Source: Pseudomonas tructae (GTDB taxonomy: Bacteria > Pseudomonadota > Gammaproteobacteria > Pseudomonadales > Pseudomonadaceae). Taken from it: a stretch of 64,000 nucleotides of DNA. Location: positions 496,001 to 560,000 of the forward strand of contig NZ_CP035952.1 of NCBI RefSeq assembly GCF_004214895.1, in the 5' to 3' direction. The position numbers and the translations under genes were made by a program. Numbering within the stretch: the first letter of the stretch is position 1; each line of letters starts with the position of its first letter. The notes under the pieces are model-generated. The model did no database searches, was not told the origin of the DNA, and saw only the letters and a program-made list of their open reading frames with translations. This document shows, one piece after another, positions 4,458 through 16,874 of this stretch.

Positions 4458-5096
4458 ATGAAAGATCCCTATGCCGCCGGATTCTGGTGCGCCGTGACTG
4501 CCTTGGGGCTGCTGAGCGTCGGCTATTTCTATGGCATCAAACAGACTCACCAACTGGGCCAGGCCCTGGTGTTTCTCTATGCCGCCGGGGGCGTGATCGG
4601 CGCGCTGGCGCTGACTGCGTTGGCGTGGATTGCCTGGCAGCAGCTGCGGGTCAGCAAGCGTCAGTTGGCTCAGGGGCGCACCCTGGTGGCAATCTGGAAC
4701 ACCAAAGTTGCCCTGCGCCGGGTCGAAACCGTGTTCGACCGCTATTTCTGGGGCAGCTACTGGCAGCCCGGGCGCACCTTCCAGGAGGTGATGGGCGAGC
4801 TTGAAGGCACGCCACTGGAGCAGAGCCTGGAAGCCTTGAAGCGCCAATGCCGCGAACTGGATCGCGAAACCCACGACCACCGCCGGCACTGGCTGGACAA
4901 CGCCCGGGAGCTGTCCACCGTCGCTACCGCCATGGCCCGGGAACGTTATCAACTGGACTTGTGCGACTCACAGCAAAGCAGCGGCCGTGGCGCCGCCGTG
5001 CTCAACCGCGACCTGGAAGTGCTGGTGTATACCTGGTCGGCGCGCCTGCGCAGCTTCGACCACCAGCTCGATGAGCTGGAGGGCGAATACCGCTGA
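4458..5096 (+). CDS. Hypothetical two-TM inner-membrane protein with coiled-coil tail
   Basis: The predicted product has 212 residues. Two hydrophobic segments (about residues 9-26 and 38-62) are followed by a long soluble, charged, helical C-terminal part rich in Arg, Glu and Gln, which is probably cytoplasmic. The start ATG at 4458 has CAGGGGA upstream; an earlier in-frame ATG at 4425 (MLRKKQQ) is less likely. I do not recognise a family with a known function. The gene ends 1 bp from the convergent CBS-domain gene. Confidence 0.7.
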   Translation: MKDPYAAGFWCAVTALGLLSVGYFYGIKQTHQLGQALVFLYAAGGVIGALALTALAWIAWQQLRVSKRQLAQGRTLVAIWNTKVALRRVETVFDRYFWGSYWQPGRTFQEVMGELEGTPLEQSLEALKRQCRELDRETHDHRRHWLDNARELSTVATAMARERYQLDLCDSQQSSGRGAAVLNRDLEVLVYTWSARLRSFDHQLDELEGEYR

Positions 5097-5097
5097 T

Positions 5098-5538
5098 TCA
5101 GTCGCCGCGAATGTACTGTTCCAGTTGCAGGATCATGTTGGCCTGCTCGGCGATAGCTTCCTTGACCAGATCACCGATCGACAGCAAACCGAGCAGCTCG
5201 CCGTTCTCGACCACCGGCAGGTGGCGCAGGTGACTGTTGGTCATCATGCTCATGCAGTAGTCGATATTCTGGTGCGGGTCGACGGTGATCACCGGCGCAC
5301 TCATGATCGCGCTCACCGGCGTCCCCACTGAACTGCGGCCCTTGAGTACCATCTTGCGTGCATAGTCACGCTCGCTGACGATCCCTACCACTTGCCCATC
5401 CTGCACCACTGGCAGGGCACCGACGTTCTTCTCGGCCATCAACTTCAGCGCATCGAGCACCATATGGTCAGGCCCAATAGTGTGCACCTGGTGGTGCTGC
5501 TGGGCTTTTGTTTTTAAAAGCTGTGCCACGGTTTTCAT
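5098..5538 (-). CDS. Tandem CBS-domain protein
   Basis: A 146-residue protein made of little more than two CBS motifs (about residues 10-65 and 75-130). Typical signatures are GALPVVQDGQVVGIVSERDYAR and LRHLPVVENGELLGLLSIGDLVKEAI. Stand-alone CBS pairs bind adenine nucleotides and sense energy or redox state; the partner is unknown. The start MKTVAQLLKTK at 5538 is preferred because the upstream in-frame stretch is low-complexity and not conserved-looking. Confidence 0.88.
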   Translation of the reverse strand: MKTVAQLLKTKAQQHHQVHTIGPDHMVLDALKLMAEKNVGALPVVQDGQVVGIVSERDYARKMVLKGRSSVGTPVSAIMSAPVITVDPHQNIDYCMSMMTNSHLRHLPVVENGELLGLLSIGDLVKEAIAEQANMILQLEQYIRGD

Positions 5539-5659
5539 AGAGGCCTCTGCGATGCTGGGAGTGGGTGACGGCAGATAGCTACAGAATCGTGTACAGATGG
5601 CCGCAGGGCAAGGGCGAAAGCGGCATCGATGTGATTGAAAAACGTCATGGGCGTAAAAA

Positions 5660-5691
5660 TGCAAAAGCGGCCAATGATGGCCGCTTTGCAT
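5660..5691 (-). terminator. Rho-independent terminator after the DUF805 gene
   Basis: Perfect 10-bp arms AAAGCGGCCA (5664-5673) and TGGCCGCTTT (5678-5687) flank a 4-nt loop. On the minus strand they are followed by a T-rich run, 22 bp beyond the stop of the zinc-ribbon/DUF805 gene. Confidence 0.8.
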
Positions 5692-5712
5692 TGAGTCTCG
5701 ATCAATCCGTGA

Positions 5713-6165
5713 TCAAGCGATACCTTTCGGGTTCGGGCCGAAACGGTTCGGGCCTGGCTGGCTGTCCTGGCACAGGAAGATCAGGTTGACGATCGGGAGC
5801 AGCAACCACCAGCCGCTACGGTCGGTATCGTGCATGCGTCGAACGCCGACGGCGATACCCGGGAGCAGCACCGCCAGGCTGTACAGGTTGGAGAGGATGG
5901 CGCCAGTACCGGCCACGCCTTCGATAATGCCCAACACAACGGCAACCAGGACGTTGACCAGGCAGAACATCCAGTATTCCTTGCGGCGTGCGCGGCCAGC
6001 GAATACGGCGTACTTCTTCAGTACTTCAAAGTACCAGATGCCGGTCGGCGCAGGCGCGGCGGTTGCAGCGGCTGGCGCAGTTGCTTGCGGCGCGCCGCAG
6101 GCAGGGCAGGCCACGGCGCTGCTGTGGATTTCCTTGGCGCAGCCGCGGCAAAAAACCATACTCAT
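5713..6165 (-). CDS. Zinc-ribbon plus DUF805 membrane protein
   Basis: A 150-residue protein. An N-terminal zinc ribbon carries CRGC and CPAC pairs (residues 6-24), then an Ala/Pro linker, then a DUF805 domain with about four membrane segments. The DUF805 hallmarks are FAGRARRKEYW and RRMHDTDRSGWW. An AAGGGA ribosome site precedes the ATG. The next gene upstream starts with a nearly identical zinc ribbon (MAMVFCRGCAKEIH against MSMVFCRGCAKEIH), so the two share a recently duplicated N-terminus. Function is unknown. Confidence 0.85.
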   Translation of the reverse strand: MSMVFCRGCAKEIHSSAVACPACGAPQATAPAAATAAPAPTGIWYFEVLKKYAVFAGRARRKEYWMFCLVNVLVAVVLGIIEGVAGTGAILSNLYSLAVLLPGIAVGVRRMHDTDRSGWWLLLPIVNLIFLCQDSQPGPNRFGPNPKGIA

Positions 6166-6180
6166 TTGTTGTCCCTTACA

Positions 6181-6534
6181 TTAATTGACTGAAAGTCCGA
6201 TATACACAAACAGAGAAATGCCCGACATAGCCGCACCGGCTACCGCCATGTTGCTTCCCGGCTTTTTATTGATGAGGCTGAGGATACCCAGGATCAGTCC
6301 GACCAGCGCAAATAGGCTCAACCCAAAAAGGGTGTCACTGTCCCATTCGCCGTCATCGGTGAGAGTAACTGCGCACAGAATCCCGAGGATGAGCGAGGTA
6401 ATGCTCATCCAGTACGATGGCTGGCTGACAGGTTGAGCTGTAGTGGGAAGATACTGAGGAGCGCCGCACTTTGGGCAGCTAGGAGCCGTTTCATGGATTT
6501 CCTTGGCACAACCGCGGCAAAAAACCATTGCCAT
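6181..6534 (-). CDS. Zinc-ribbon plus DUF4190-like membrane protein
   Basis: A 117-residue protein with the same N-terminal zinc ribbon as its downstream neighbour (CRGC...CPKC) but a different membrane part. Two or three hydrophobic helices (about residues 43-60, 70-88, 95-114) with LILGILSLINKKPG resemble DUF4190. AAGGA lies at a normal distance before the ATG. It ends 15 bp before the DUF805 gene, so the two are probably co-transcribed. Function is unknown. Confidence 0.8.
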   Translation of the reverse strand: MAMVFCRGCAKEIHETAPSCPKCGAPQYLPTTAQPVSQPSYWMSITSLILGILCAVTLTDDGEWDSDTLFGLSLFALVGLILGILSLINKKPGSNMAVAGAAMSGISLFVYIGLSVN

Positions 6535-6629
6535 GACAATTCCTTTTGATCGTTTTCGCTTGCGTGGGCGCAGCAGCGGGCGCCGCGGAGTTTACCAAAT
6601 ATTTCATAGATGGCGTAACGGTGGCAGTA

Positions 6630-6656
6630 CCCTGCGGCACACAAGGTGCGGCAGGG
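6630..6656 (-). terminator. Hairpin downstream of the DUF3857 gene
   Basis: CCCTGC-G-GCAC (6630-6640) pairs with GTGC-G-GCAGGG (6646-6656) around a 5-nt loop, 10 bp past the stop codon. There is no clear U-tract, so termination is inferred from position and stem strength. Confidence 0.5.
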
Positions 6657-6665
6657 CACGACACA

Positions 6666-8522
6666 TCAGCTCTTCTGGACGATTACCTGGCTGTTCAGGT
6701 CATTGAGCATGGCTTCAATCGTCGGTTTCATTTTCTCGAAGTCCTTGGCACTGCACACCGCTTTGGGGTAGTGGAAGTCCAGGCGACGCTTGATCACCAG
6801 GCTATTGCCTTGCTGGGCATATTCGGCGCTGTAGTCGAAGTGCTTGTCCTTGAGGGTCACAGGCTTTGGCGCAGCAAGGATGGTGACGTCAGCCGGGAAC
6901 TCGAAACGCGCCTGTTCTTCGGTGATGCCGGAGATGCAGGTGAAGTCCTGAGTGCGCTGCTTTTCAGCGACAAAACCGAAGACGTTCTGGGCGATGCCAC
7001 CGGCCAGGCTGGTCAAGGTCGGCACACCGATCGGGCCGGGCAGGTTGACCAGGTTTTCACTACGGCCATTGATCTGCATGCTGAACGAGCCGGTGTTTTC
7101 CAGGTCATCGCTGCTGATCTTGCCGCTGCCGCGCTGGCCGTAGGCGGCAAGGATGCGCTGGGTCAGCAGGTCGCGTTCGGCCGGCTGCATGTTGCGCATT
7201 ATCCAGCGGTTCATCTCGGCGGCCCAGCCGTCGATCTTCGAGTCATGCGCGAAGTCGGCGGCACCGGTGCTGGCCACGGTGTAGGTGGTGCTGTTGCGCA
7301 CCAGCCCTGGCTGGTTGGACGGGGTGTGGCCGAGTTTGCCGGAGCGGGCCAGTACGGTGGGCTTGTCCAGCACTGCGGCGGGCAGGTAGCCGCTGGCGAT
7401 GGCTTCGGCGGTGGAATCCAGGTACAGGTCAAGGCTCGGAATGTAGGTGATCACGTGGTTGATCACGCCCAGGGTCGGCACCTTGGGCAGGGTATAGGCA
7501 TTGCCGAGATTGATCAGCGCCGGGGTGCTCTCGATATTGACGGCGGCCAGTAGTGCTTCGAGCAGGGCGACATGGTCCTTGCAGTCGCCATAGCGATTGC
7601 TCAGCACGGTGTCGGCGGCATGCGGCACCACACCACCGGCGCCAATGTACACGGCTACGTAGCGAATGTTGCGGCGCACCCAGTCGCCCAGGGCCAGGGC
7701 CTTGTCACGCGGGTCGTCGATCTTGGCAGTGAGCTTCTCGGCCAGTTCGCGGATGGCCGGGGTGACCTCGCTGTTGGCGCGCGCCGCGTAGGCGTTGGCG
7801 AACTCGCTGTAGTCGGCGAAAGTAGACACGGCCAGGTATTTGCCGTAATCCGAATAGGCTACCGCACCGAGTTCGGTACGGGCGTTGTCACCCTGCACGT
7901 AATCCCACTGGTAGACCTTGCGGCCGGCCTCGGCCTTGGGGCTGGAAGCCTTGAAGCCTTTGGCTTCGGCATTGAGCTTGAGGCTTTTCGGCAGGTCGTA
8001 GATCAGCGTGAACTGCTTGGTCGGGTGGAACTGTGGCATGGCCAGGTCTTCGAACTGACCTGGGAACAGCGGGGTCTTGCGCTGTTTCTTGAAGCTCAGC
8101 ACCAGGCGATCGCCCACCGCCACTTCCGGGAAAATCACCACCTTGACCAGGCTGTCGTGGAACATCGGCGCTCGGGAAGACTGCTGCTCCTGCTGCTCCT
8201 TGATCTGCTCGGGGCTGACCTGCACCTTGCGGCCATCGGGCTTCTGGGTATAGGCCTGGGTTACTTCGAGGCTTTCCAGAGTGCGGTTGTAGTACAGCGA
8301 CTGCTGGGCCTTGGCCTGGATCGCGCGTTCTTCGTTGATCAGCAGGACCAGGTCCTGGGTGGAGGCGTAGCTGCCATCTTCGGCAACCACGGTGCGTAGA
8401 ATGTCCTTTTCGATAGTGACGGAGGGGTCGGTACCGTCATCCTTGGCCTGCGCCACGTTCAGGGCGAACAGGCAGCACAGCATCCCGACCAACCGGGTCG
8501 GGGTCAAAGCGAACCGCTTCAT
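6666..8522 (-). CDS. DUF3857 / transglutaminase-like periplasmic protein
   Basis: A 618-residue exported protein with a signal peptide ending around AQA (residue 26). An N-terminal DUF3857 region (about 50-210) is followed by a transglutaminase-like core (about 255-380) and a beta-rich C-terminal region. The papain-like triad is visible: Cys in NRYGDCKDH, His in INHVITYIP and Asp in LYLDSTAE. Such proteins are presumed peptidases or peptide ligases; the substrate is unknown. It appears monocistronic. An inverted repeat lies upstream at 8555-8576. Confidence 0.88.
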   Translation of the reverse strand: MKRFALTPTRLVGMLCCLFALNVAQAKDDGTDPSVTIEKDILRTVVAEDGSYASTQDLVLLINEERAIQAKAQQSLYYNRTLESLEVTQAYTQKPDGRKVQVSPEQIKEQQEQQSSRAPMFHDSLVKVVIFPEVAVGDRLVLSFKKQRKTPLFPGQFEDLAMPQFHPTKQFTLIYDLPKSLKLNAEAKGFKASSPKAEAGRKVYQWDYVQGDNARTELGAVAYSDYGKYLAVSTFADYSEFANAYAARANSEVTPAIRELAEKLTAKIDDPRDKALALGDWVRRNIRYVAVYIGAGGVVPHAADTVLSNRYGDCKDHVALLEALLAAVNIESTPALINLGNAYTLPKVPTLGVINHVITYIPSLDLYLDSTAEAIASGYLPAAVLDKPTVLARSGKLGHTPSNQPGLVRNSTTYTVASTGAADFAHDSKIDGWAAEMNRWIMRNMQPAERDLLTQRILAAYGQRGSGKISSDDLENTGSFSMQINGRSENLVNLPGPIGVPTLTSLAGGIAQNVFGFVAEKQRTQDFTCISGITEEQARFEFPADVTILAAPKPVTLKDKHFDYSAEYAQQGNSLVIKRRLDFHYPKAVCSAKDFEKMKPTIEAMLNDLNSQVIVQKS

Positions 8523-8554
8523 AAAGATCCTTCTCGCAGGTGTATTCCAGATGC

Positions 8555-8576
8555 CTGATTCAGGAATGCGAATCAG
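8555..8576. promoter_or_regulatory. Short inverted repeat upstream of the DUF3857 gene
   Basis: CTGATTC (8555-8561) and GAATCAG (8570-8576) form a perfect 7-bp inverted repeat about 35 bp before the DUF3857 start, in a promoter-length gap. It may be an operator; no regulator is identified. Confidence 0.3.
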
Positions 8577-8720
8577 TTAGTAGCATTTTGCCTTATCTGC
8601 AGGCTGGTTTGCTGGAGGATTTTTTTTCAGTGTGTGTTTCCCTGAGGTCGCTACCAGCGTGCGCGGGTCGTCGGGGGCGTTAGCAAACCTGCCGGTGGGC
8701 AAGCAGTGCGATCTACCAGA

Positions 8721-8745
8721 GCGCACCCTGTATGCCGGGGTGCGC
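8721..8745 (-). terminator. Hairpin at the 3' end of the nine-gene operon
   Basis: Perfect 8-bp arms GCGCACCC (8721-8728) and GGGTGCGC (8738-8745) enclose a 9-nt loop, 26 bp after the last stop codon of the operon. No U-tract follows, so this may be a 3' stabilising stem rather than a true intrinsic terminator. The rest of the 8523-8771 gap holds nothing recognisable. Confidence 0.45.
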
Positions 8746-8771
8746 CCGAGTTCCTGAAATCCTGGTGGCGG

Positions 8772-9863
8772 TCAGGCCAGCTTGATGAACATTGCACTGC
8801 CCATGACAAAGGCGCAGTCGATGTTATCCAGGTGCTGTTCGATGAAGGCATCGGCCACCCGTTGCGGGCCGTCGCCATAGGGCCAGATGTAATCATCGAT
8901 GATGATCCAGCCACCGGGCACCACCAGGTCAGCCCAGGCTTGCACGTCGGCATGGGCGCTCTCGTAGCTATGGTTGCCGTCCACGTGCAGCACGGCAATG
9001 CGTCCGCTGTAGGTGGTGGCACCGAACGCCGGCGTGTTGACCTGACGGCTGCCACGGTACGCCACGGCGGCCTCTACTGACGGCAGGCGCAGGTAGTTCA
9101 CTGCACCATTGGCATAAGGCAGCAGGTTGAGCTGGAATACGGTCAGGGCTTCGTCGGCATTGACCGGCACGCGGTCGACCAGGCCCTTCTCGTCGTTCTG
9201 GATCAGGTGTTCATTCGACCAAGGGTCGACGCACAGCAGTTTGCCGACGTTGAAGCAGTTGGCCAGGCGGCTGAGGATGAATGCCGATTTACCCCACCAG
9301 CTGCCAATCTCGACCACATCGCCTTGTGGCGCGTAGCGGAACAGTTCGCACAAGGCACGGGTTTTTTCATGATCGCACATGCCGGGAATCGACTCGGCAT
9401 GGCGGAACAGCGCAGCAAGCTCAAGGGCACTCAGAGCAGGCTTGGGCTCGGTAGCCCCAGCCAGCGGCAGTGGTTCGGCCAGTAGCGCGGCGCCAAACTG
9501 CAGGGCCTTGTTGTAAGGCGCGACTTCGCTGGCGACCGGTGATGCATTGACCAGCGTCACCCCCGGGAACGCCTCGCCAATGCACCGGCTGAGGTAGTCC
9601 CATACCACCGGGTTGGGGGTAAAGATCCCGCCGATATCGAACTCGGCGATGGCCTGGCGCAGCTTGTCGTCGAAGTCGGCGGCAGTGACGTAGGGCAGGT
9701 GCACCCAGTCCGGGTAGCTTTCACGGGAAGGGTCGTGGCCCAGGGAGGAAGAGCCGACCACGCGTTGCCCTTCGCTCAAAGCTCGCTCCAGGTAGGCCAG
9801 CGAACGGGGCATGCCCGCCGGGAAAATCAGCACGGGTTTAGCCACGGGAAGGTCCTTTTTCAC
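8772..9863 (-). CDS. Class I SAM methyltransferase fused to an ATP-grasp-type N-terminal domain
   Basis: A 363-residue protein. Residues 1 to about 130 look like the Rossmann-like pre-ATP-grasp domain of ATP-grasp ligases (VLIFPAGMPRSLAYLERAL..., then FTPNPVVWDYLSRCI and an NKALQFGAALL helix). The ATP-grasp catalytic core is absent. From about residue 155 there is a class I methyltransferase (Methyltransf_24-like): VVEIGSWWGKSAFILSRLA as the SAM-binding loop, then HVDGNHSYESAHADVQ and VVPGGWIIIDDY. It is the last gene of the nine-gene operon and overlaps its upstream neighbour by 26 bp. The acceptor substrate is unknown, probably a sugar or sugar-peptide made by the operon. Confidence 0.8.
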   Translation of the reverse strand: MKKDLPVAKPVLIFPAGMPRSLAYLERALSEGQRVVGSSSLGHDPSRESYPDWVHLPYVTAADFDDKLRQAIAEFDIGGIFTPNPVVWDYLSRCIGEAFPGVTLVNASPVASEVAPYNKALQFGAALLAEPLPLAGATEPKPALSALELAALFRHAESIPGMCDHEKTRALCELFRYAPQGDVVEIGSWWGKSAFILSRLANCFNVGKLLCVDPWSNEHLIQNDEKGLVDRVPVNADEALTVFQLNLLPYANGAVNYLRLPSVEAAVAYRGSRQVNTPAFGATTYSGRIAVLHVDGNHSYESAHADVQAWADLVVPGGWIIIDDYIWPYGDGPQRVADAFIEQHLDNIDCAFVMGSAMFIKLA

Positions 9864-10614
9864 AGAGCAGGAAGATACTCGAGCACAGGTCTGGGTAGTG
9901 CTGGCCCAACTGGTAGCAGCCTTCGAGGTACTCGTCGGAAATGATGTCGGTTTGCAGCAGGCGGTCCCACTGGAAATTGGCCAACGCCTTGAAGAAGATG
10001 CCTGAACGCTGCACCACTTTCAGCCCGGCGGCTACTGCATCGCGTTCGAGGGTATCGAGCGAGTAGGTGCAGCGATGGCCGTGCTCAAGCTCCGCCGGGG
10101 TAACCGCGGCGTTATGGCTGATCAGGCCCATTTTCACTGCAATCTGGCGCGATGGTGCATTGGCGTTCGGGCACGCGAGAAAGAAGCGCCCGCCTTCTGC
10201 CAGCCACTCGTCGTTGATCCGGCGCAGCACTGCAACCGGGTCATCCAGGTGTTCGAGCACATGGGTGAGGATGATGTTGTCGTAACGGCGTGGCAGGGTC
10301 ACGGTCTCGAACATCGAATTGACGTAGTTGACCCGGTCGCCGAATTTTTCCCGGGCTTCGCCAAGGGCTTCGTCGGACGCTTCGACGCAGGTGATATCGT
10401 CGAAATGCTCGAGAAAGCGGCGCGTGAATTCGCCTTTGAAACTGCCCAGCTCAAGCAGGCTGCCTGGGCGGAAGAAGGGCTGGAAAGAGCGGATCATGTA
10501 CGGGTGCATCACGTCGTAGTCAAACGAGTATGCGTACTTGCGACCGCTGTCCTTGATATCGGAATCGGTAAATTCCAAGTTATGGTTTCTTTGCTTTTCC
10601 ACAGTGTTCCCCAT
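9838..10614 (-). CDS. Class I SAM-dependent methyltransferase
   Basis: A 258-residue methyltransferase. The SAM-binding motif is LLELGSFKGEFTRRFLE (about residues 53-69), followed by the acidic loop CVEASDEAL and the motif NIILTHVLEHLDDP. The family (Methyltransf_11/23) methylates sugars and small molecules in many glycan and secondary-metabolite loci. It resembles the other methyltransferase of the operon (15036-15758) in layout, including the C-terminal GIFFKALANFQWDRLL segment. The start follows the upstream propeller gene stop by 6 bp. Substrate unknown. Confidence 0.85.
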   Translation of the reverse strand: MGNTVEKQRNHNLEFTDSDIKDSGRKYAYSFDYDVMHPYMIRSFQPFFRPGSLLELGSFKGEFTRRFLEHFDDITCVEASDEALGEAREKFGDRVNYVNSMFETVTLPRRYDNIILTHVLEHLDDPVAVLRRINDEWLAEGGRFFLACPNANAPSRQIAVKMGLISHNAAVTPAELEHGHRCTYSLDTLERDAVAAGLKVVQRSGIFFKALANFQWDRLLQTDIISDEYLEGCYQLGQHYPDLCSSIFLLCEKGPSRG

Positions 10615-10620
10615 TGGAAT

Positions 10621-11577
10621 CTAGTCGCTTTCCAGCACTGCCAGACCGAAGCCGTGGCGCCCGAATTCGTTGCCGTTGTACAGCAGGTAAACATTGCCTT
10701 GGCTCTGGAACAGATGCGGATAGCACTGCATCTGCGCGTCCCAGCCGTCACTTGAAACATCAATGCCTGCCAGGCTGTCGTCACGCTCCCAGTTCAGCAG
10801 ATCGGTTGAACGGGCATAACCCAGGCGATAACCGCGGCTGGGGTCCTGGCGGAAACCATAAGCCTGGCGATAGCAGAAATACATGTGATAGACGCCGTTG
10901 ATCTCGACCACCGTCGGTAATGCCTGGCATTCGTCGGCATTCAGCCGGTCGCTGATGATCTGCAGACCGTCCCGCTGCCACTCGACACCATCATGGGATG
11001 TGGCATGGGCAATCTTGTAGACCCGGTCAGGTGCATCGGCGTCGCTGAACTTCTTCCATTGGGTACCGAAGATGTACCACATATGAAAGCGCTCACCGTG
11101 ACGCTGCACGAAGGCATCTGCCACCAGAAACGGCTCTTTCAGCGAAGCCGCCATCACCGGCCCGGTGCCGTGGCGCTGGAAGGTCCGGCCCTGGTCATGA
11201 CTGATCGCCAGGCCGATGGCTGCATCGGCAGACACCGATACCTTGCGGTTCCAGCCTGTGGTGTAGGCCAGTACCCGGTCGCCGTCCTTGAGTACGTTGA
11301 TCGGGAAGATCCCGTGTTCGTCGAAACAACCCAGGCCACCGATAGGCAGGACCGTGTGCTTCGAAACATCGAGCAAACGGCTCATGTCCAGCGAGTAGTC
11401 AGCGTACGCGACATGACTGATGAACTTGCCCAGACTGTCGCGCTCACGGGTGGAGAAATACACCCGCACCCGGTCTTCAAGCACCAGGGTCTGCGGCGAC
11501 TGGGCGAACTCCACGCAACGGTTGGCCAAGCTGTGTTCGGTCGGGTCGAAGACCTTGCCGAGTTTTTTCCACTTCAT
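10621..11577 (-). CDS. Five-bladed beta-propeller glycosidase-like protein (copy 2)
   Basis: A 318-residue protein made of repeated beta-propeller blades like GH32/43/62/68-type enzymes: CVEFAQSPQTLVLEDRVRVYFSTR, GLAISHDQGRTFQRHG, IAHATSHDGVEWQRDG and YHMYFCYRQ. It is paralogous to the next gene upstream: both begin KWKKLGKVFDP and end GFGLAVLE. The ATG at 11577 overlaps the upstream stop as ATGA with GGGGGCAGG before it, so I prefer it to a TTG at 11589. There is no signal peptide, so it is cytoplasmic and unlikely to be a secreted glycanase. Relatives occur in polysaccharide loci, where catalytic function is unproven. Confidence 0.78.
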   Translation of the reverse strand: MKWKKLGKVFDPTEHSLANRCVEFAQSPQTLVLEDRVRVYFSTRERDSLGKFISHVAYADYSLDMSRLLDVSKHTVLPIGGLGCFDEHGIFPINVLKDGDRVLAYTTGWNRKVSVSADAAIGLAISHDQGRTFQRHGTGPVMAASLKEPFLVADAFVQRHGERFHMWYIFGTQWKKFSDADAPDRVYKIAHATSHDGVEWQRDGLQIISDRLNADECQALPTVVEINGVYHMYFCYRQAYGFRQDPSRGYRLGYARSTDLLNWERDDSLAGIDVSSDGWDAQMQCYPHLFQSQGNVYLLYNGNEFGRHGFGLAVLESD

Positions 11578-12548
11578 GCCTGCCCCCAAGCGTTTTCATC
11601 TTCCAGTACCGCCAGACCGAAGCCGGCACGGCCCATGCCATTGCCCTGGTAGAGCATGTAGGTGGCGCCGTCGAGTTCGAACACGTGTGGATAGTTGACC
11701 ATCTCCGAGTCCCAGCCCGTTTCACCCAGGGCAATATCAACCAGCGTATCGTCTCGCTGCCAGTCGATCATGTCCGTCGAGCAGGCGTAGCCGATGCGGT
11801 AGCCCCCCTCGCGGCCCTTGTAGTTGCGGATGTCGCGATAGGAAAAGAACATGTGATAGCGGCCGTTCCGGTAGATCACATCCGGGCAGGCCTGGCATTC
11901 ATGCTCACCGAGTTTGTCCGCGATCAGGTCCTTGCCGACTTTGACCCAGTCGATACCATTGTCAGAGGTGGCCATGCGAATCTTGTACAGCGGCTCAGGC
12001 TTGCCGTCGGTCATCCGCCATTCCTTGCCCGCCACGTACCAGAGCTGCCATTGGCCATTGAACCGGCGAATACGCGGACTGCCGAGTAGAAACGGTTCAT
12101 CGGCGCTGTAGGGGAGTACCGGCCCGTCGCCCAGGCGCTGGAACGTTTCGCCGCCGTCGCGGCTGATGGCCAGTCCGATTGCTGCGTTGAACGGCACGGA
12201 TTCGCAGCGCGTCCAGCCGGCGTAATAAGCACGGACCTCGTCGCCATCGGCAATCACCGAGACAGGATAGGTGCCGAACTCATCAAAGGTACCGAACTTG
12301 CCCAGCGCCATGACCGGCTGCGGGCAAATCCGAAAGACCTTGCTCAGATCGTTACGGTCCAGGTCAATGTAGGAGATGTAGCTGAGGTATTGCCCGTCCG
12401 CACCCGGCGCCGGACGTGAGCAGAAGTACACGCGCACGTAGGTTGGGGTTACCAGAACTGAAGGTGACTGGGCGAATTCGTGCATCCAGGTCGGCTCGGT
12501 CAGATCCTTGGGATCGAACACTTTGCCAAGTTTTTTCCATTTGAACAT
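11574..12548 (-). CDS. Five-bladed beta-propeller glycosidase-like protein (copy 1)
   Basis: A 324-residue cytoplasmic beta-propeller protein related to its downstream neighbour over the whole length. Shared segments include FAQSPSVLV, VRVYF, AAIGLAISRDGGETFQR and YHMFFSYRD. The motif ECQACPDVIYRNGRYHMFF recalls the acidic residues of GH43-type blades. The start MFKWKK (12548) is chosen over a TTG two codons upstream because it gives the same N-terminus as the paralogue. It follows the phosphoesterase stop by 13 bp. It could hydrolyse or transfer a sugar inside the operon's pathway; this is inference. Confidence 0.78.
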   Translation of the reverse strand: MFKWKKLGKVFDPKDLTEPTWMHEFAQSPSVLVTPTYVRVYFCSRPAPGADGQYLSYISYIDLDRNDLSKVFRICPQPVMALGKFGTFDEFGTYPVSVIADGDEVRAYYAGWTRCESVPFNAAIGLAISRDGGETFQRLGDGPVLPYSADEPFLLGSPRIRRFNGQWQLWYVAGKEWRMTDGKPEPLYKIRMATSDNGIDWVKVGKDLIADKLGEHECQACPDVIYRNGRYHMFFSYRDIRNYKGREGGYRIGYACSTDMIDWQRDDTLVDIALGETGWDSEMVNYPHVFELDGATYMLYQGNGMGRAGFGLAVLEDENAWGQA

Positions 12549-12561
12549 GTGCAATCCCGCT

Positions 12562-13239
12562 TCAGTCGGCCAGGCGGCGCAAGCGCGCAGCGCCGGTCTT
12601 CAGACCGCCATAGTAGTAATCGTTGAAACCTGCGGCTTCCATCAGGTCGAACACTGTCTGCATGTCGTACTCGACACGGTGCAGGGTGAAATCGCCATTC
12701 TCGTAGACGGCAAAGGCTGCACGTGGGTTGCCATCGCGCGGCTGGCCCACCGACCCTGGGTTGCAGTAGATCTTTTCGCCAAAATGTTTGACGGTCTGGT
12801 GATGGGTGTGGCCAGAAACGAACACCCGCCCCTCTACTTGCTCGAAGTACTCAGCCGTAGGCTTGAGGTACTCATCGATCGGATCGCCCCAACCACCATG
12901 GACCATGCGCACCTCGCCGATCTGACGCTGCAGGGGGAAGCTGCGCAGCCAATCCAGGTGTTCGGCCTTGATGACCGTGCGCAGGTAGGCCAGGCAATCG
13001 TTGACGCTACGCGAACGCGGGCAGAAGCCGCCACCGGCCATGTACCAGTCGTGGTTGCCCATCACGCAGGGGATTTCGCGGTCGCGCAGTTCCTGGCAGC
13101 ACTCGTTGATCTGGGCGTAGTAGCCCACAACGTCGCCAGCGCAGTAGATGCTGGTCACACCCAGGCGGTCGATCTCGGCCAGCACTGCCTTGAGCGCTTC
13201 ATAATTGCCGTGGATATCAGAGATGAACGCCGTCTTCAT
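12562..13239 (-). CDS. Calcineurin-like metallophosphoesterase (YfcE/MJ0936-type)
   Basis: A 225-residue protein with all dimetal phosphoesterase motifs: FISDIHGNYEAL, CAGDVVGYY, VMGNHDWY, MVHGGW and VSGHTHHQ. The start MKTAFISDIHGN at 13239 gives the usual N-terminus; the longer open frame upstream lies over the neighbouring ATP-grasp gene. The coding overlap is 23 bp. Family members hydrolyse phosphodiesters or phosphomonoesters. Here it may dephosphorylate an intermediate of the tailoring pathway. Confidence 0.88.
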   Translation of the reverse strand: MKTAFISDIHGNYEALKAVLAEIDRLGVTSIYCAGDVVGYYAQINECCQELRDREIPCVMGNHDWYMAGGGFCPRSRSVNDCLAYLRTVIKAEHLDWLRSFPLQRQIGEVRMVHGGWGDPIDEYLKPTAEYFEQVEGRVFVSGHTHHQTVKHFGEKIYCNPGSVGQPRDGNPRAAFAVYENGDFTLHRVEYDMQTVFDLMEAAGFNDYYYGGLKTGAARLRRLAD

Positions 13240-14194
13240 AGAAAATCTGCTCGTCGGTGTAGCGTACGGCGCGACCACGGCGGATGGCCGGCTGCACCGG
13301 ATCGCGTTGATCCAGGAAATAGTCCAGGGCCATGGCACTTTCGTTGTAACCGAAGGCGCTGCGGATGGAGGTGGACGAAGAAATCCGTGGGTTGATCTCC
13401 AGCAGCTTGGGCCCCTGGGCGCAACCGCGGAACTGGAAGTTGGTCGGCCCCAGCGGGCGGAACAGGCGACACAGTTCATCGATGGCTGGAATGAACTGCG
13501 CCGAGTCGACCACTTCGGCCTTGTCGGTGAAGCCATCGCGCGACAGCTTGCGGCGCAGAGTCATGCTGGCGAAGGAGCCGCCGCGGCCATCGCAGAATGC
13601 CGAGGTGGTGAACTCTTCATCATCGTTGCCGACAATCGGCTGGGCCATCAGTACCGGGCCAATGTCGGTGCGATACTGCTGAAACTGCGCTTCGCAGCTG
13701 ACCCGCACGATGCCTTTGGAACCAAATCCACGGCGTGGCTTGAGCAAGAATGGCAGGCCGAAGCGGGCGACCAGCGTGGCATAGTCCTGTTCCAGTGAGC
13801 TGTCGATGGCGCAGGCGACGCCGGCTGCCAACAGCTGCTGGTAGAAGCCCCACTTGTCCTTGCACAAGCCGATCAAGGCCGGGTCATTGAGCAACGGCAG
13901 GGCGCCTGTGCTGCTGATTTGCGGGATGTGCTCGACCCAGTGATACATGTCGGCCTCGATACCCGGGATCAACATGTCAATGTGCTGACGCCGCAAGGTG
14001 TCCAGCAACCAGTCGAGGTACTCCGGCGCCGAGGTGGGCGGCGCCTGTTCGAAGACATCGCAAAACGCCGGTGCGACCGAGTCATCATAGATGGTCGTGC
14101 CGACCAGCAGGCAATCCGGCCTGGCCTGGCGTAGCGCGCGCAAAATGCCGTAACCGACGATACCGCTGGCGCCGGATACCAGGATTCTTTTCAT
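13217..14194 (-). CDS. ATP-grasp ligase
   Basis: A 325-residue ATP-grasp enzyme. The N-terminal Rossmann-like part starts ILVSGASGIVGYGILRALRQA and contains the DMLIPGIEADM segment. The ATP-binding subdomain has GLPFLLKPRRGFGSKGIVRV. The metal and catalytic part has PKLLEINPRISSSTSIRSAFG, with the metal-ligand Glu-Ile-Asn-Pro-Arg. The architecture is CarB-like, as in enzymes that make amide or peptide bonds via acyl-phosphates. Its ATG overlaps the stop of the upstream epimerase gene by 4 bp. In a glycan or peptide pathway it would join an amino acid or acid to an amine; the exact substrate is unknown. Confidence 0.87.
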   Translation of the reverse strand: MKRILVSGASGIVGYGILRALRQARPDCLLVGTTIYDDSVAPAFCDVFEQAPPTSAPEYLDWLLDTLRRQHIDMLIPGIEADMYHWVEHIPQISSTGALPLLNDPALIGLCKDKWGFYQQLLAAGVACAIDSSLEQDYATLVARFGLPFLLKPRRGFGSKGIVRVSCEAQFQQYRTDIGPVLMAQPIVGNDDEEFTTSAFCDGRGGSFASMTLRRKLSRDGFTDKAEVVDSAQFIPAIDELCRLFRPLGPTNFQFRGCAQGPKLLEINPRISSSTSIRSAFGYNESAMALDYFLDQRDPVQPAIRRGRAVRYTDEQIFYEDGVHL

Positions 14195-15039
14195 CGTGCT
14201 TGCAACCTGCTGTCGACCAGGCGCCCGAGGCCTTGCTCCAGGCTGATGGACGGGTAAAGCCCGAGAGTACGGTAGAGGGTGTCGTCGTAGGCAAAGACGT
14301 TATCGCTGATAGCACTCTTGCTGGTGTCGAAGCTTACGCTACTGCTCGAGCCGGCGGCCTGGACCAGCGCACTGGCCACGCCAAAGAGGCTGGCATCCTG
14401 TGGGTGGGTGCAGGTGTACAGGCCTTCAACCCGGTCTTTGATGACCGCGCTGATAATCTTGCAAAGGTCATCGATATGCAGGTAATTCCGGCGCGCATCG
14501 TGGTTGCCGTAGATAACGATGTCATGGTTGCTCAGGGCTTTGTCCAGGGTGCCATAGATGAACGCCTGGTGACGCCTGAAGCTGTCGGGCTCACCGTATA
14601 GCTGCGATGGCCTGAGCACTGTGCAGGCCAATTCGGCCCGGGCACAGTACATCTGCACCAGCTCATCACCATGGCGTTTGGAGAGACCATAAATGCCGTA
14701 GAAATCGCTTCGGCTGTCCAGTTCGGCGTTGATACTGGAGATCTGTACGAAATGTTGCACACCTGCGCGTTGGGCTGCATCGCAGAGCTTAAGCGCGCCC
14801 AGGGCATTGATGTGTTCAGCCGTGAGCAGGGCGTTGATGTCGCCGTCGACAAAACTGGCGGCGGTATTGATCACAACATCGATGCCAGGCGGCAGGCTGA
14901 TCTGATCAGCCGACCCGCTCAGGTCCAGTTCCAGCGCACAGCCGCTGCGGCCTGCCGTGAGCACTTCGGCAAAGGTCGCCAGCACTGGCTGCAGTGCCTG
15001 TGCCAGAGAGGACTGGCCGCCAACGAGCAGAATCTTCAT
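14191..15039 (-). CDS. NAD(P)-dependent epimerase/dehydratase (extended SDR)
   Basis: A 282-residue nucleotide-sugar-type SDR. It has an N-terminal glycine motif LLVGGQSSLAQALQ, an active-site YGIYGLSKRHGDELV (Tyr-x3-Lys) and an upstream Ser in FVQISSINAE. The segments VLRPSQLYGEPD and RRNYLHIDDLCKII are standard for sugar epimerases, dehydratases and reductases. The start at 15039 has ATGA overlap with the upstream methyltransferase. The glycine motif GGxxxxA is looser than the classical GxxGxxG. It probably modifies a nucleotide sugar in the operon's pathway. Confidence 0.85.
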   Translation of the reverse strand: MKILLVGGQSSLAQALQPVLATFAEVLTAGRSGCALELDLSGSADQISLPPGIDVVINTAASFVDGDINALLTAEHINALGALKLCDAAQRAGVQHFVQISSINAELDSRSDFYGIYGLSKRHGDELVQMYCARAELACTVLRPSQLYGEPDSFRRHQAFIYGTLDKALSNHDIVIYGNHDARRNYLHIDDLCKIISAVIKDRVEGLYTCTHPQDASLFGVASALVQAAGSSSSVSFDTSKSAISDNVFAYDDTLYRTLGLYPSISLEQGLGRLVDSRLQAR

Positions 15040-15758
15040 CGTGCGGAAATCTCGGCGAACAAGCCGCAGCTCAGTTCTGGATAGTCGACACCGATGGTGC
15101 AAAGGCCTTCGATCACCTGGCGATCCAGTTGCAGCGAGAGGATCTGCCGAGTGGTGAACGGCTTGAGGTAGATGCCTTCCAGGCGATCAACGCGGCAACC
15201 GGCCTGGGCGACGTCGTCGCTGAGTGTGGCGACGGTGTAAAAGCGCTGATGGCCTAGCAAGTGATCGTTTTCGGACAAGGTCGTCACGTCGTCAAGCAGC
15301 CCGGCCAACTGACCCAGCCTGCGGTTGAGCACTTCGGCGTTGGGCACGGCAATGAACATCCTCCCACCGGGGGCGAGAAACTCGCGAAAGCGTCGCAGAA
15401 TCACCAGCGGATCATCGACGTGCTCCAGGATGAAGCCCATCACGATCACGTCAAAGCGCTCATCGGTGCTGAACTTCTCGAACCAGGTCTCGATGATCTG
15501 CGCCCGGCACTCGGGGTGTTTGCTGTGGAAATTGTCGATAACGGCAGGCGAGCCCTCCAGCACCACGTGGCGCTCGAAGCGGCGCGAAAAAATATCCGTG
15601 GTATAGCCGTGGCCCAGGCCCAGTTCCAGCAACGAACGAGCGGCACCCGCATGGTGCAGGACGCGCTGCGGATACCAGGTCAGGAGAATCTCGTTGTCGA
15701 AATCGTACAGGTTGTCGCCCTGATAGGCGGCCACGTGTTTATCCAGCGTATTGCTCAT
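15036..15758 (-). CDS. Class I SAM-dependent methyltransferase
   Basis: A 240-residue methyltransferase with the SAM motif SLLELGLGHGYTTDIFSRRF (about residues 41-61), the post-I region VVLEGSPAVIDNF, the motif VIVMGFILEHVDDP, then APGGRMFIAVPNAE. It shares layout and C-terminal style with the operon's second methyltransferase. It starts 9 bp after the stop of the WbqC-like gene, and its stop overlaps the epimerase start. Substrate unknown. Confidence 0.86.
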   Translation of the reverse strand: MSNTLDKHVAAYQGDNLYDFDNEILLTWYPQRVLHHAGAARSLLELGLGHGYTTDIFSRRFERHVVLEGSPAVIDNFHSKHPECRAQIIETWFEKFSTDERFDVIVMGFILEHVDDPLVILRRFREFLAPGGRMFIAVPNAEVLNRRLGQLAGLLDDVTTLSENDHLLGHQRFYTVATLSDDVAQAGCRVDRLEGIYLKPFTTRQILSLQLDRQVIEGLCTIGVDYPELSCGLFAEISAR

Positions 15759-15767
15759 CTTTTCCCC

Positions 15768-16466
15768 TCAAACCAGTTCATAGCGAGCATTGACGATGGC
15801 GCGGACCTGCTCTGGCGCATTGAACATCATCACATCCACCATGGAAAGCCAGGGCACGAAGGGTGCGCCGAACTGCGGATAGTCCAGGGAATGCGAGCGG
15901 ATGAAGCGCAGCTCGGTGCCTTGAGCGCGAAACACCTCGCGATCGTACAGCTCGGTGCCGCCGATGGCATTGATGTAAGTCTCTGCGCCCAGCGCCTTGC
16001 ACAGTGCCAAGACTTTGTCCTGGCCTTTCAATTGGTGATCGATGTCGATCTGCGATGACACTCGGATCTGCGTGTTCAATTGCAAATAGGCGCAGATTTC
16101 GACAATAGCGTTATAGATGTAGCGGAACAGGTTGTGCTCTTCGCTGCTGACAATGCGCTGCAGCAAGGGCCAGACCTGTGCGAAATACGGTGCCTGGCTA
16201 TAGGCGCCCTTGAACTGATTGAGCAGCTTGCTGCGGTCGAACTCGGCGCTCAGCTCGCGCTGAACCACATCGAGGCTGTCGGAGTCTTTCTTTAGCGCCA
16301 GTGAAAACATCGCATCACTGCCGTTTTGCAGTAGACGGTTGCGATTGATCCAGCCCTTTTTGGTGTACTTGATGTTGTCGTACACCACGAACACATCCGC
16401 TGCCGCGATCAGCTGGAAATAGCCGATGTAGGGCAGGAAGTAGGGCTGCATGATCGATAATTTCAT
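15768..16466 (-). CDS. WbqC-like family protein (first gene of the nine-gene operon)
   Basis: A 232-residue protein with the WbqC hallmark N-terminus MKLSIMQPYFLPYIGYFQLI and VYDNIKYTKKGWINRN, plus the C-terminal GTELYD...FIRSHSLDYPQFG...LSMVDVMMFN. WbqC proteins occur in O-antigen, capsule and flagellin-glycan loci and in some amino-acid-modifying pathways; their biochemistry is poorly defined. The start at 16466 is fixed by the conserved N-terminus, although no strong ribosome site is visible. It is the first gene of the operon, so the promoter should lie in the roughly 300 bp between here and the tRNA terminator. Confidence 0.88.
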   Translation of the reverse strand: MKLSIMQPYFLPYIGYFQLIAAADVFVVYDNIKYTKKGWINRNRLLQNGSDAMFSLALKKDSDSLDVVQRELSAEFDRSKLLNQFKGAYSQAPYFAQVWPLLQRIVSSEEHNLFRYIYNAIVEICAYLQLNTQIRVSSQIDIDHQLKGQDKVLALCKALGAETYINAIGGTELYDREVFRAQGTELRFIRSHSLDYPQFGAPFVPWLSMVDVMMFNAPEQVRAIVNARYELV

Positions 16467-16759
16467 GGTGCAACGGTCCGGCAGTGGAGCGCGCAGGGCG
16501 CGCAGTTCGGCACGTCCGGTAACGGGCGTGATGACAAGAACGATTCTCGCCAATCTGTGCAGTTAGTCGGCCGCAGAACCGATCCCTTGAGCGCCTGAGG
16601 ATGGGCGGCGTTTGCCGCAGCACAATACCCGAGCCACCCCTGGGCCTCAACGGCTGCGGCTTGGCGACGGCCTGGCGGCAGTGGCCCGACAGATGAGCGG
16701 TCGGTTTGAGGGGCGTGATCCTCGCGCAGGGATTTGTTTCTTCAGATTTCGCCAGAAAC
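16467..16759. other. Intergenic region before the nine-gene operon
   Basis: About 290 bp with no supported gene. It must contain the promoter of the WbqC-led operon unless transcription reads through from tRNA-Arg, whose terminator makes that less likely. I see no convincing -35/-10 pair or strong palindrome. Confidence 0.5.
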
Positions 16760-16789
16760 AAAAAAGGCCCAGGTATTCACCTGAGCCTT
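16760..16789 (-). terminator. Rho-independent terminator of tRNA-Arg
   Basis: On the minus strand AAGGCTCAGGT pairs with ACCTGGGCCTT (one G-U) around a 4-nt loop, followed by a run of six T. It lies 8 bp past the tRNA CCA end. Confidence 0.88.
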
Positions 16790-16797
16790 GATCGATA

Positions 16798-16874
16798 TGG
16801 CGCACTCGGCGGGATTCGAACCCACGACCCCTGCCTTCGGAGGGCAGTACTCTATCCAGCTGAGCTACGAGTGC
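16798..16874 (-). tRNA. tRNA-Arg (anticodon CCG)
   Basis: A 77-nt cloverleaf including an encoded CCA. The acceptor stem GCACTCG/CGAGTGC is perfect (16868-16874 with 16802-16808). The D-arm has AGCTCAGCTGGATAGAG. The anticodon loop CTCCGAA lies on the stem CTGCC/GGCAG, and the T-arm contains GGTTCGAATCC. Positions 34-36 read CCG, giving tRNA-Arg for CGG codons. Confidence 0.97.

Follow-up and report, generated by a model that had tools for sequence, protein, structure and literature searches.

A candidate sugar-tailoring cassette for aminoacylated viosamine on flagellin in Pseudomonas tructae

The viosamine island of Pseudomonas syringae pv. tabaci is the nearest worked-out pathway to the locus described here, a nine-gene operon (genes A to I) beside a tRNA-Arg gene of Pseudomonas tructae. 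The operon lies within positions 496,001 to 560,000 of contig NZ_CP035952.1 (assembly GCF_004214895.1), and this whole stretch of 64,000 nucleotides is called the window. The likeness would lie in a VioA-type aminotransferase, N-acylation, methylation and a flagellin target. The P. syringae island differs in its gene set (vioA, vioM, vioT, vioS, vioB, vioR and acp) and its 3-hydroxybutanoyl acyl group, and the passages that describe it list no WbqC, propeller or ATP-grasp ligase (PMC3927599). Pfam searches limited to the nine operon proteins found no VioB, VioR or acyl carrier protein; a gene for a FabH-like ketoacyl-acyl carrier protein synthase III (KAS III) lies beside fliC.

Other described systems share parts of this arrangement. 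Flagellin glycosylation islands of Enterobacteriaceae, in the passages that describe them, lie between fliC and fliA and have their own glycosyltransferases (PMC4875605), whereas the P. tructae operon adjoins tRNA-Arg, 1.47 Mb from fliC, and carries neither a glycosyltransferase nor an aminotransferase. The fliA-fliC insert of Dickeya zeae WH1 encodes a methyltransferase, a glycosylase, WbqC, a DegT aminotransferase, two hypothetical proteins and a methyltransferase-regulatory-domain protein; by these gene names it is the same cassette type, and the relevant passage lists it without a function (PMC9650423). Unlike the enterobacterial and Dickeya-type cassettes, the P. tructae operon has B-C-D-E in place of a GNAT acyltransferase. 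The Escherichia coli O121 antigen, with Qui4N(N-acetylglycyl), is alike in having aminotransferase, WbqC and GNAT genes in a row and differs in its O-antigen target. The flagellin peptidylamido-glycan of Clostridioides difficile type B is alike in that an amino-dideoxy sugar is N-acylated by a peptide, through a locus with an aminotransferase, an acyltransferase, a D-alanine ligase and an alanine dehydrogenase; it differs in its sugar (Fuc3N) and Gram-positive host, and the passages on it do not mention WbqC or a propeller (PMC5207245). BshC, the cysteine-adding enzyme of bacillithiol synthesis, resembles WbqC in modeled fold and in proposed amide formation on an amino sugar, but the two share no sequence-profile similarity. 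The P. tructae operon is a variant of the known flagellin and surface-glycan sugar modules.

Results

The operon is probably an acquired sugar-tailoring cassette for aminoacylated viosamine on flagellin. The proposed substrate is dTDP-4-amino-4,6-dideoxyglucose (viosamine, Qui4N), which would come from a VioA-type aminotransferase whose gene lies at the flagellin locus. WbqC (A) would form an amide bond between an amino acid, or a similar carboxylate, and the sugar amine. The ATP-grasp ligase D, with the short-chain dehydrogenase/reductase (SDR) C, methyltransferase B and phosphoesterase E, would build or cap the substituent, a role that a GNAT acetyltransferase would fill in most relatives. 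H, plus I where present, would carry out methylation, and the large glycosyltransferases encoded beside fliC would transfer the finished sugar onto flagellin. Computation shows the gene content and its conservation, a module swap in relatives, the position of the aminotransferase gene, the lack of any other WbqC in the genome and the fold of A; we infer the substrates, the order of the steps and the flagellin target.

The P. tructae genome has one close VioA-type aminotransferase gene (1980637-1981764), near fliC at 1983308. The order at this flagellin locus is a 1221-aa glycosyltransferase open reading frame (ORF), the aminotransferase, KAS III and fliC. The aminotransferase and glycosyltransferase genes are adjacent, with about 68 bp from stop to likely ATG, and both frames are open. 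The aminotransferase is 65% identical to the copy in a Paraburkholderia cassette and 62% identical to the RefSeq-named VioA of two E. coli loci, and its best NCBIfam model is DesI (dTDP-4-dehydro-6-deoxyglucose aminotransferase), under cut-off. The best solved relative of the Paraburkholderia protein is PDB 2po3, which we take to be DesI. The VioA identity, the DesI model and the 2po3 match point to dTDP-viosamine as the putative product.

A survey of 398 genomes of the genus found the aminotransferase (E ≤ 1e-110) in 61, and eight aminotransferase regions from genus relatives (L126-L133) were fetched. In five of the eight (L126-L130) the aminotransferase gene (75-84% to that of P. tructae) is followed by an open WbqC frame (34-39% to A) and then by a family without a Pfam match, a PhyH dioxygenase, an H-type methyltransferase (49-51% to H) and a glycosyltransferase (51-64% to that of P. 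tructae). L130 has an additional GNAT gene, KAS III and fliC (85%) adjoin the glycan genes in L129, and L133 is a polysaccharide-type locus. The P. tructae flagellin locus has no match to any of the nine operon proteins. A is the only WbqC in the genome, and H (52%) and B (35%), both in the window, are its only H-type methyltransferases at E ≤ 1e-8. Because WbqC and H-type genes occur only in the window, the operon provides the two gene types that L126-L130 have and the P. tructae flagellin locus does not. The position of the aminotransferase gene and the loci of the relatives are the reasons for placing the P. tructae product on flagellin.

Relatives of the operon were collected by one scan with an F/G alignment against the genome_contigs collection (one genome per species, 84,980 species), which gave at least 541 matches. 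The counts below refer to the best 80 of these, in which operon and neighbor proteins were placed by tblastn in fetched stretches that differ in length. F and G are present in all 80 by selection, the F/G alignment being the query, with G at ≥50% identity in 80/80; H (≥50%) is present in 75 and A in 76. The number of loci with a DegT/VioA-like aminotransferase is 67 at E ≤ 1e-5, falling to 61 when ≥40% identity is required and to 44 when ≥55% is. In 60 loci this gene (≥35%) and A are both on the plus strand, and in 52 of these fewer than 400 bp separate its end from the A gene that follows; neighbor clustering agrees, placing an aminotransferase cluster at 58/80. The recurring neighbors are aminotransferase, glycosyltransferase, GtrA, RmlA/B and flagellar genes. 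Titles of the cassette loci name Proteobacteria, Bacteroidetes, Verrucomicrobia, Rhodopirellula, Chloroflexi and candidate phyla; these labels are record titles, and those of metagenome-assembled genomes (MAGs) may be wrong. The operon grouping exceeds chance because the same genes co-occur in other phyla. An earlier note on this DNA, made from the sequence alone, had proposed a common pathway, and co-conservation outside the genus supports it. The lack of co-conservation that the note held would speak against a common pathway is seen within the genus, where F (E ≤ 1e-70) is in 1 of the 398 genomes, namely P. tructae itself, and is not seen outside it.

The middle of the cassette exists in two versions. 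A GNAT acyltransferase of about 150 aa is encoded in 64 of the 80 loci and D plus E in 13; none has both and three have neither. Of these three, L090 carries another kind of ATP-grasp gene ahead of F, L083 is flagged as cut and L017 is a partial cassette described below. E (≥60%) is found in 13 loci and C (≥40%) in 11, with no match to C in some D/E relatives. B (≥55%) is in 12 loci, made up of 10 of the 13 D/E loci, L090 and L017, and is in none of the 64 GNAT loci. I (E < 1e-5) accompanies either variant, in 10/80. Since GNAT and D/E never co-occur and B tracks the ATP-grasp loci, the ATP-grasp-based module, judged by gene content, replaces GNAT. The nearest NCBIfam model of the GNAT protein is RimI, followed more weakly by WecD and PseH (sugar N-acyltransferases), all under cut-off, and we infer that both modules cap a sugar-bound substituent.

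Locus L104 on plasmid pRL4b5 of Rhizobium leguminosarum (7097-13052) is a complete stand-alone GNAT-type cassette with aminotransferase, WbqC, F, G, GNAT, H and glycosyltransferase genes; some 1.5 kb upstream of it lies a gene for a LuxR-family regulator. Locus L017 of Achromobacter sp. Root83 (8290-11988), which has the highest identity to the window, is a partial cassette with B, C, F and G alone in the stretch. C ends about 70 bases before F there, so D and E are missing; a 79% aminotransferase is encoded elsewhere in that genome.

The structure model of A has BshC as its top match by two aligners, with the fold common over 223/232 residues, and on this model A is predicted to be a BshC-like amino-acid:amino-sugar ligase. 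Q7, Y16, D30, W39, R42 and N43 are invariant in 44 relatives. WbqC (PF08889) has been described as functionally uncharacterized (PMC5532660), and a literature search found nothing that joins BshC and O-antigen. E. coli O121, whose WbqC is 39% identical to A, bears on function: its substituent is reported as N-acetylglycyl and that of O116 as acetyl, both resting on a review passage that cites the structures (PMC3210612). By elimination, WbqC would be the glycyl ligase in O121. Propeller and H queries had no match in the O121 region.

The main alternative is that WbqC is not a ligase but takes another step, the amide being made by D here and by GNAT elsewhere; we regard this as somewhat unlikely, though it is the strongest of the competing views. 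WbqC stays constant while GNAT and D/E swap, the modeled fold of A also matches class I tRNA synthetases and nucleotidyl transferases at lower Z, and BshC activity itself had no in vitro proof as of the passage in PMC4360819. The likeness to BshC is confined to structure: hhalign gave a probability of 0.1% between WbqC and profiles of nine BshC sequences (from genomes of cassette loci titled Bacteroidetes), PF10079 was not among the matches of A at E ≤ 0.01, and the best PDB match of WbqC by sequence had E 0.27. O121 also carries a serine O-acetyltransferase gene, which, like the hhalign result, counts against a WbqC ligase. In favor of a ligase, an N-acetylglycyl group requires two acylations and the O121 aminotransferase is directly followed by WbqC and one GNAT, and no WbqC is annotated between galF and gndA/wzzB in two E. 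coli vioA loci that carry an O116-type flippase.

The family without a Pfam match that directly follows WbqC (L128 11667-12662; L139 10810-11784) occurs in the flagellar loci of relatives and in E. coli O123/O186, with 36% identity between them. It may be another amino-sugar acylation enzyme. In E. coli O123/O186 the 324-aa protein encoded next to WbqC was considered as a propeller and proved not to be one.

Several observations weigh against the reading of viosamine on flagellin. Flagellar genes are found in 11 of the 80 stretches, polysaccharide-type genes in 28 and both in three, and RmlA/B may serve either pathway. No flagellar-type promoter signal above chance was found for the operon. 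Region L131 has ATP-grasp and methyltransferase genes and no WbqC match. In L132 (genome G218, 6165-10891) the genes for the aminotransferase (70%) and a large glycosyltransferase are direct neighbors, neither WbqC nor an H-type gene intervening, and G218 has no H relative (E ≤ 1e-20) and no cassette F, so an aminotransferase-glycosyltransferase locus may work, or idle, without the cassette. A pathway that requires viosamine would need a VioA-like gene in every cassette genome. Of fifteen cassette genomes chosen because the stretch lacks a close aminotransferase, three have a 62-79% copy elsewhere, seven have 34-43% relatives only and five have none at E ≤ 1e-40, so the sugar is not necessarily viosamine everywhere. 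In two of the five (L024 and L026) the cassette sits amid flagellar genes with an RmlA-type gene and no aminotransferase match in the stretch; either another amino sugar serves there or the assemblies are incomplete.

A flagellar setting recurs with both variants, for example in L022, L023, L024 and L026 (four of the 13 D/E loci) and in L037, L081, L086 and L093 (GNAT loci). The names checked were FliA, FliD and flagellin in L081, FlgM in L022 and FlgK in L024, and in Buttiauxella (L081) the cassette lies between flagellin and fliA. The flagellar and polysaccharide surroundings together indicate a donor-sugar module with different outputs. Gtr-type GT2 genes (≥45%) in 22/80 loci and GtrA in 14/80 make a different carrier possible in other hosts. 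That the cassette serves the lipopolysaccharide or exopolysaccharide of P. tructae instead of flagellin is improbable, although the polysaccharide-type and Gtr-type neighbors of relatives are in its favor. So are distant propellers, 31-42% identical to F, that a smaller genus search (95 genomes, E ≤ 1e-10) found in seven other genomes among glycan-type genes, with WbqC at 5/7 of these loci. A polysaccharide-type cluster of P. tructae near 4.44 Mb (L103, G000:C1:4437000-4456900) has its own DegT aminotransferase, but that protein is just 28% identical to the one encoded beside fliC, and it is the flagellin locus whose missing WbqC and H-type functions the operon, with the only WbqC, supplies.

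The operon is a horizontally acquired cassette. Among the matches listed, the closest copies of F are from Achromobacter (86%), a Pseudomonadota MAG (84%), a beta-proteobacterial MAG (82%) and Paraburkholderia (81%); the G+C content of the operon is ordinary. At E ≤ 1e-60 none of 12 relatives matched the DUF3857 neighbor protein, which was therefore unusable as an empty-site anchor, and the gabD side was taken instead. At the tRNA-Arg site of five relatives the gabD side aligns and the operon does not. About 11.7 kb (window 5080-16797), between the tRNA and the next part alignable with relative G005, is unshared, and it also carries DUF805, CBS-domain and DUF3857/transglutaminase genes. With a single occurrence of the tRNA 3' end in the window, and a search for long flanking repeats that gave none, an att-bounded element is not supported. 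In L134 (genome G015) the 3' half of tRNA-Arg and the terminator are duplicated (9374-9457 and 10315-10392; window 16760-16842, 92%), and the duplicate sits some 0.86 kb away from the intact tRNA, which would fit an integration at the same tRNA in that relative. A phage origin was considered and dropped, F having no match in 50,697 phage records.

No promoter was identified for the operon, which probably has its own because a terminator-like hairpin follows tRNA-Arg. A sigma-54-like site (16622-16636) was not used: its motif occurs three times in the window against 0.84 expected, a count reached in 3 of 100 shuffles, and the full sigma-54 consensus (≤3 mismatches) is found less often than expected. 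That the operon is an unused passenger in this strain has a small probability. It lies apart from its aminotransferase gene, F is confined to one genome of the genus, no promoter is in evidence and L132 pairs aminotransferase and glycosyltransferase genes without any cassette; opposed to this are the nine open frames with short junctions and the open aminotransferase and glycosyltransferase frames beside fliC. A soluble small molecule with no glycan connection is very improbable: ATP-grasp and methyltransferase genes are found together in natural-product clusters too, but the neighbors that recur in relatives are those of sugar and flagellar pathways.

Nine intact ORFs, A to I, fill the minus strand from 16466 to 8772 (Table 1). 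The junctions from A to I are a gap of 9, overlaps of 4, 4 and 23, a gap of 13, an overlap of 4, a gap of 6 and an overlap of 8. The earlier note had described nine packed genes by tRNA-Arg, and the ORFs, junctions and tRNA position agree. Its family assignments match the Pfam labels except in the N-terminal part of I, which it had read as an ATP-grasp domain fused to a methyltransferase; residues 1 to about 165 have no Pfam or NCBIfam match, and the methyltransferase is the C-terminal half. I has a GTG start, with an alternative upstream GTG at 9863. D scores 183 bits with NF009402, under its cut-off of 218, and matches PDB 2pn1 at E 7e-12. The paralog pairs are F/G (46% identity) and B/H (32%). 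H has a close solved homolog, PDB 2p7h/2p7i (E 5e-127), deposited as a hypothetical protein and presumably a Pectobacterium gene product. PADLOC matches to B, E and H were weak only, and a defense system was rejected. As the note had stated, no glycosyltransferase, flippase or polymerase was matched among the nine proteins in Pfam or NCBIfam, and the genes of an O-antigen cluster (wzx, wzy and glycosyltransferases) are not among the nine.

Table 1 Features of the operon and its tRNA border (window coordinates)
Feature	Position	Strand	Evidence
A: WbqC-family protein, 232 aa	15768..16466	-	WbqC PF08889, 230.9 bits vs cut-off 21.3, E 2e-68, whole protein
B: class I S-adenosylmethionine (SAM) methyltransferase	15036..15758	-	PF13489 (Methyltransf_23)
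C: NAD-dependent epimerase/dehydratase-like (SDR)	14191..15039	-	PF01370, E 1e-23
D: ATP-grasp (carbamoyl-phosphate-synthase-like) ligase	13217..14194	-	PF15632, 43.3 bits vs cut-off 29.1
E: YfcE-like metallophosphoesterase	12562..13239	-	PF12850, E 2e-23
F: five-bladed beta-propeller, GH130/GH43-like fold	11574..12548	-	
G: second propeller, F paralog	10621..11577	-	46% to F
H: SAM methyltransferase, cassette core	9838..10614	-	PF13489
I: Methyltransf_24/TylF-like methyltransferase, accessory	8772..9845	-	PF13578, E 4e-17
tRNA-Arg(CCG), border of variable region	16798..16874	-	ARAGORN
Terminator-like hairpin after tRNA	16764..16789	-	terminator-like matches overall 8 vs shuffled mean 6.9, not above expectation

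F and G have the five-bladed propeller fold of GH130. F scores 21.1 bits with PF04041 (GH130) against a cut-off of 26 and G has no match to it; both pass the GH32N cut-off of 22.1 (F 29.7, G 29.9) over short stretches. Acidic and Arg columns are conserved, and G deviates from F at F positions 223 and 282.

Discussion

The earlier note had suggested that a glycan or flagellin carries a methylated sugar or amino-acid-like moiety in amide linkage, and this is now the leading reading, through the aminotransferase gene beside fliC, the WbqC and H-type genes in the flagellar loci of relatives, the GNAT/ATP-grasp swap and the BshC-like model of WbqC. Other parts of the note fared differently. Transfer by the operon itself gives way to transfer at the flagellin locus, where the large glycosyltransferases are encoded. 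The lipid carrier it had mentioned keeps a place in other hosts, where relatives have Gtr-type neighbors, and flagellin is favored in P. tructae. Nothing was found in favor of the soluble small molecule that it had also named.

A broader proposal is offered tentatively, as possible rather than probable. WbqC may be a widespread BshC-like class that amidates nucleotide-activated amino sugars with amino acids. Here, with an ATP-grasp extension and repurposed glycosidase propellers, it would make an aminoacyl or peptidyl viosamine for a Gram-negative flagellin and, being a cassette that is exchanged freely, would replace, from elsewhere on the chromosome, the in-locus WbqC module of relatives.

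The most valuable outcome is a testable function for WbqC (PF08889) together with a pathway split over two sites. An amide-forming chemistry proposed for the synthesis of a thiol cofactor would become linked to surface glycans. The tailoring module moves between phyla as a unit, and in one genome the pathway would be divided between a tRNA-Arg site and the flagellin locus.

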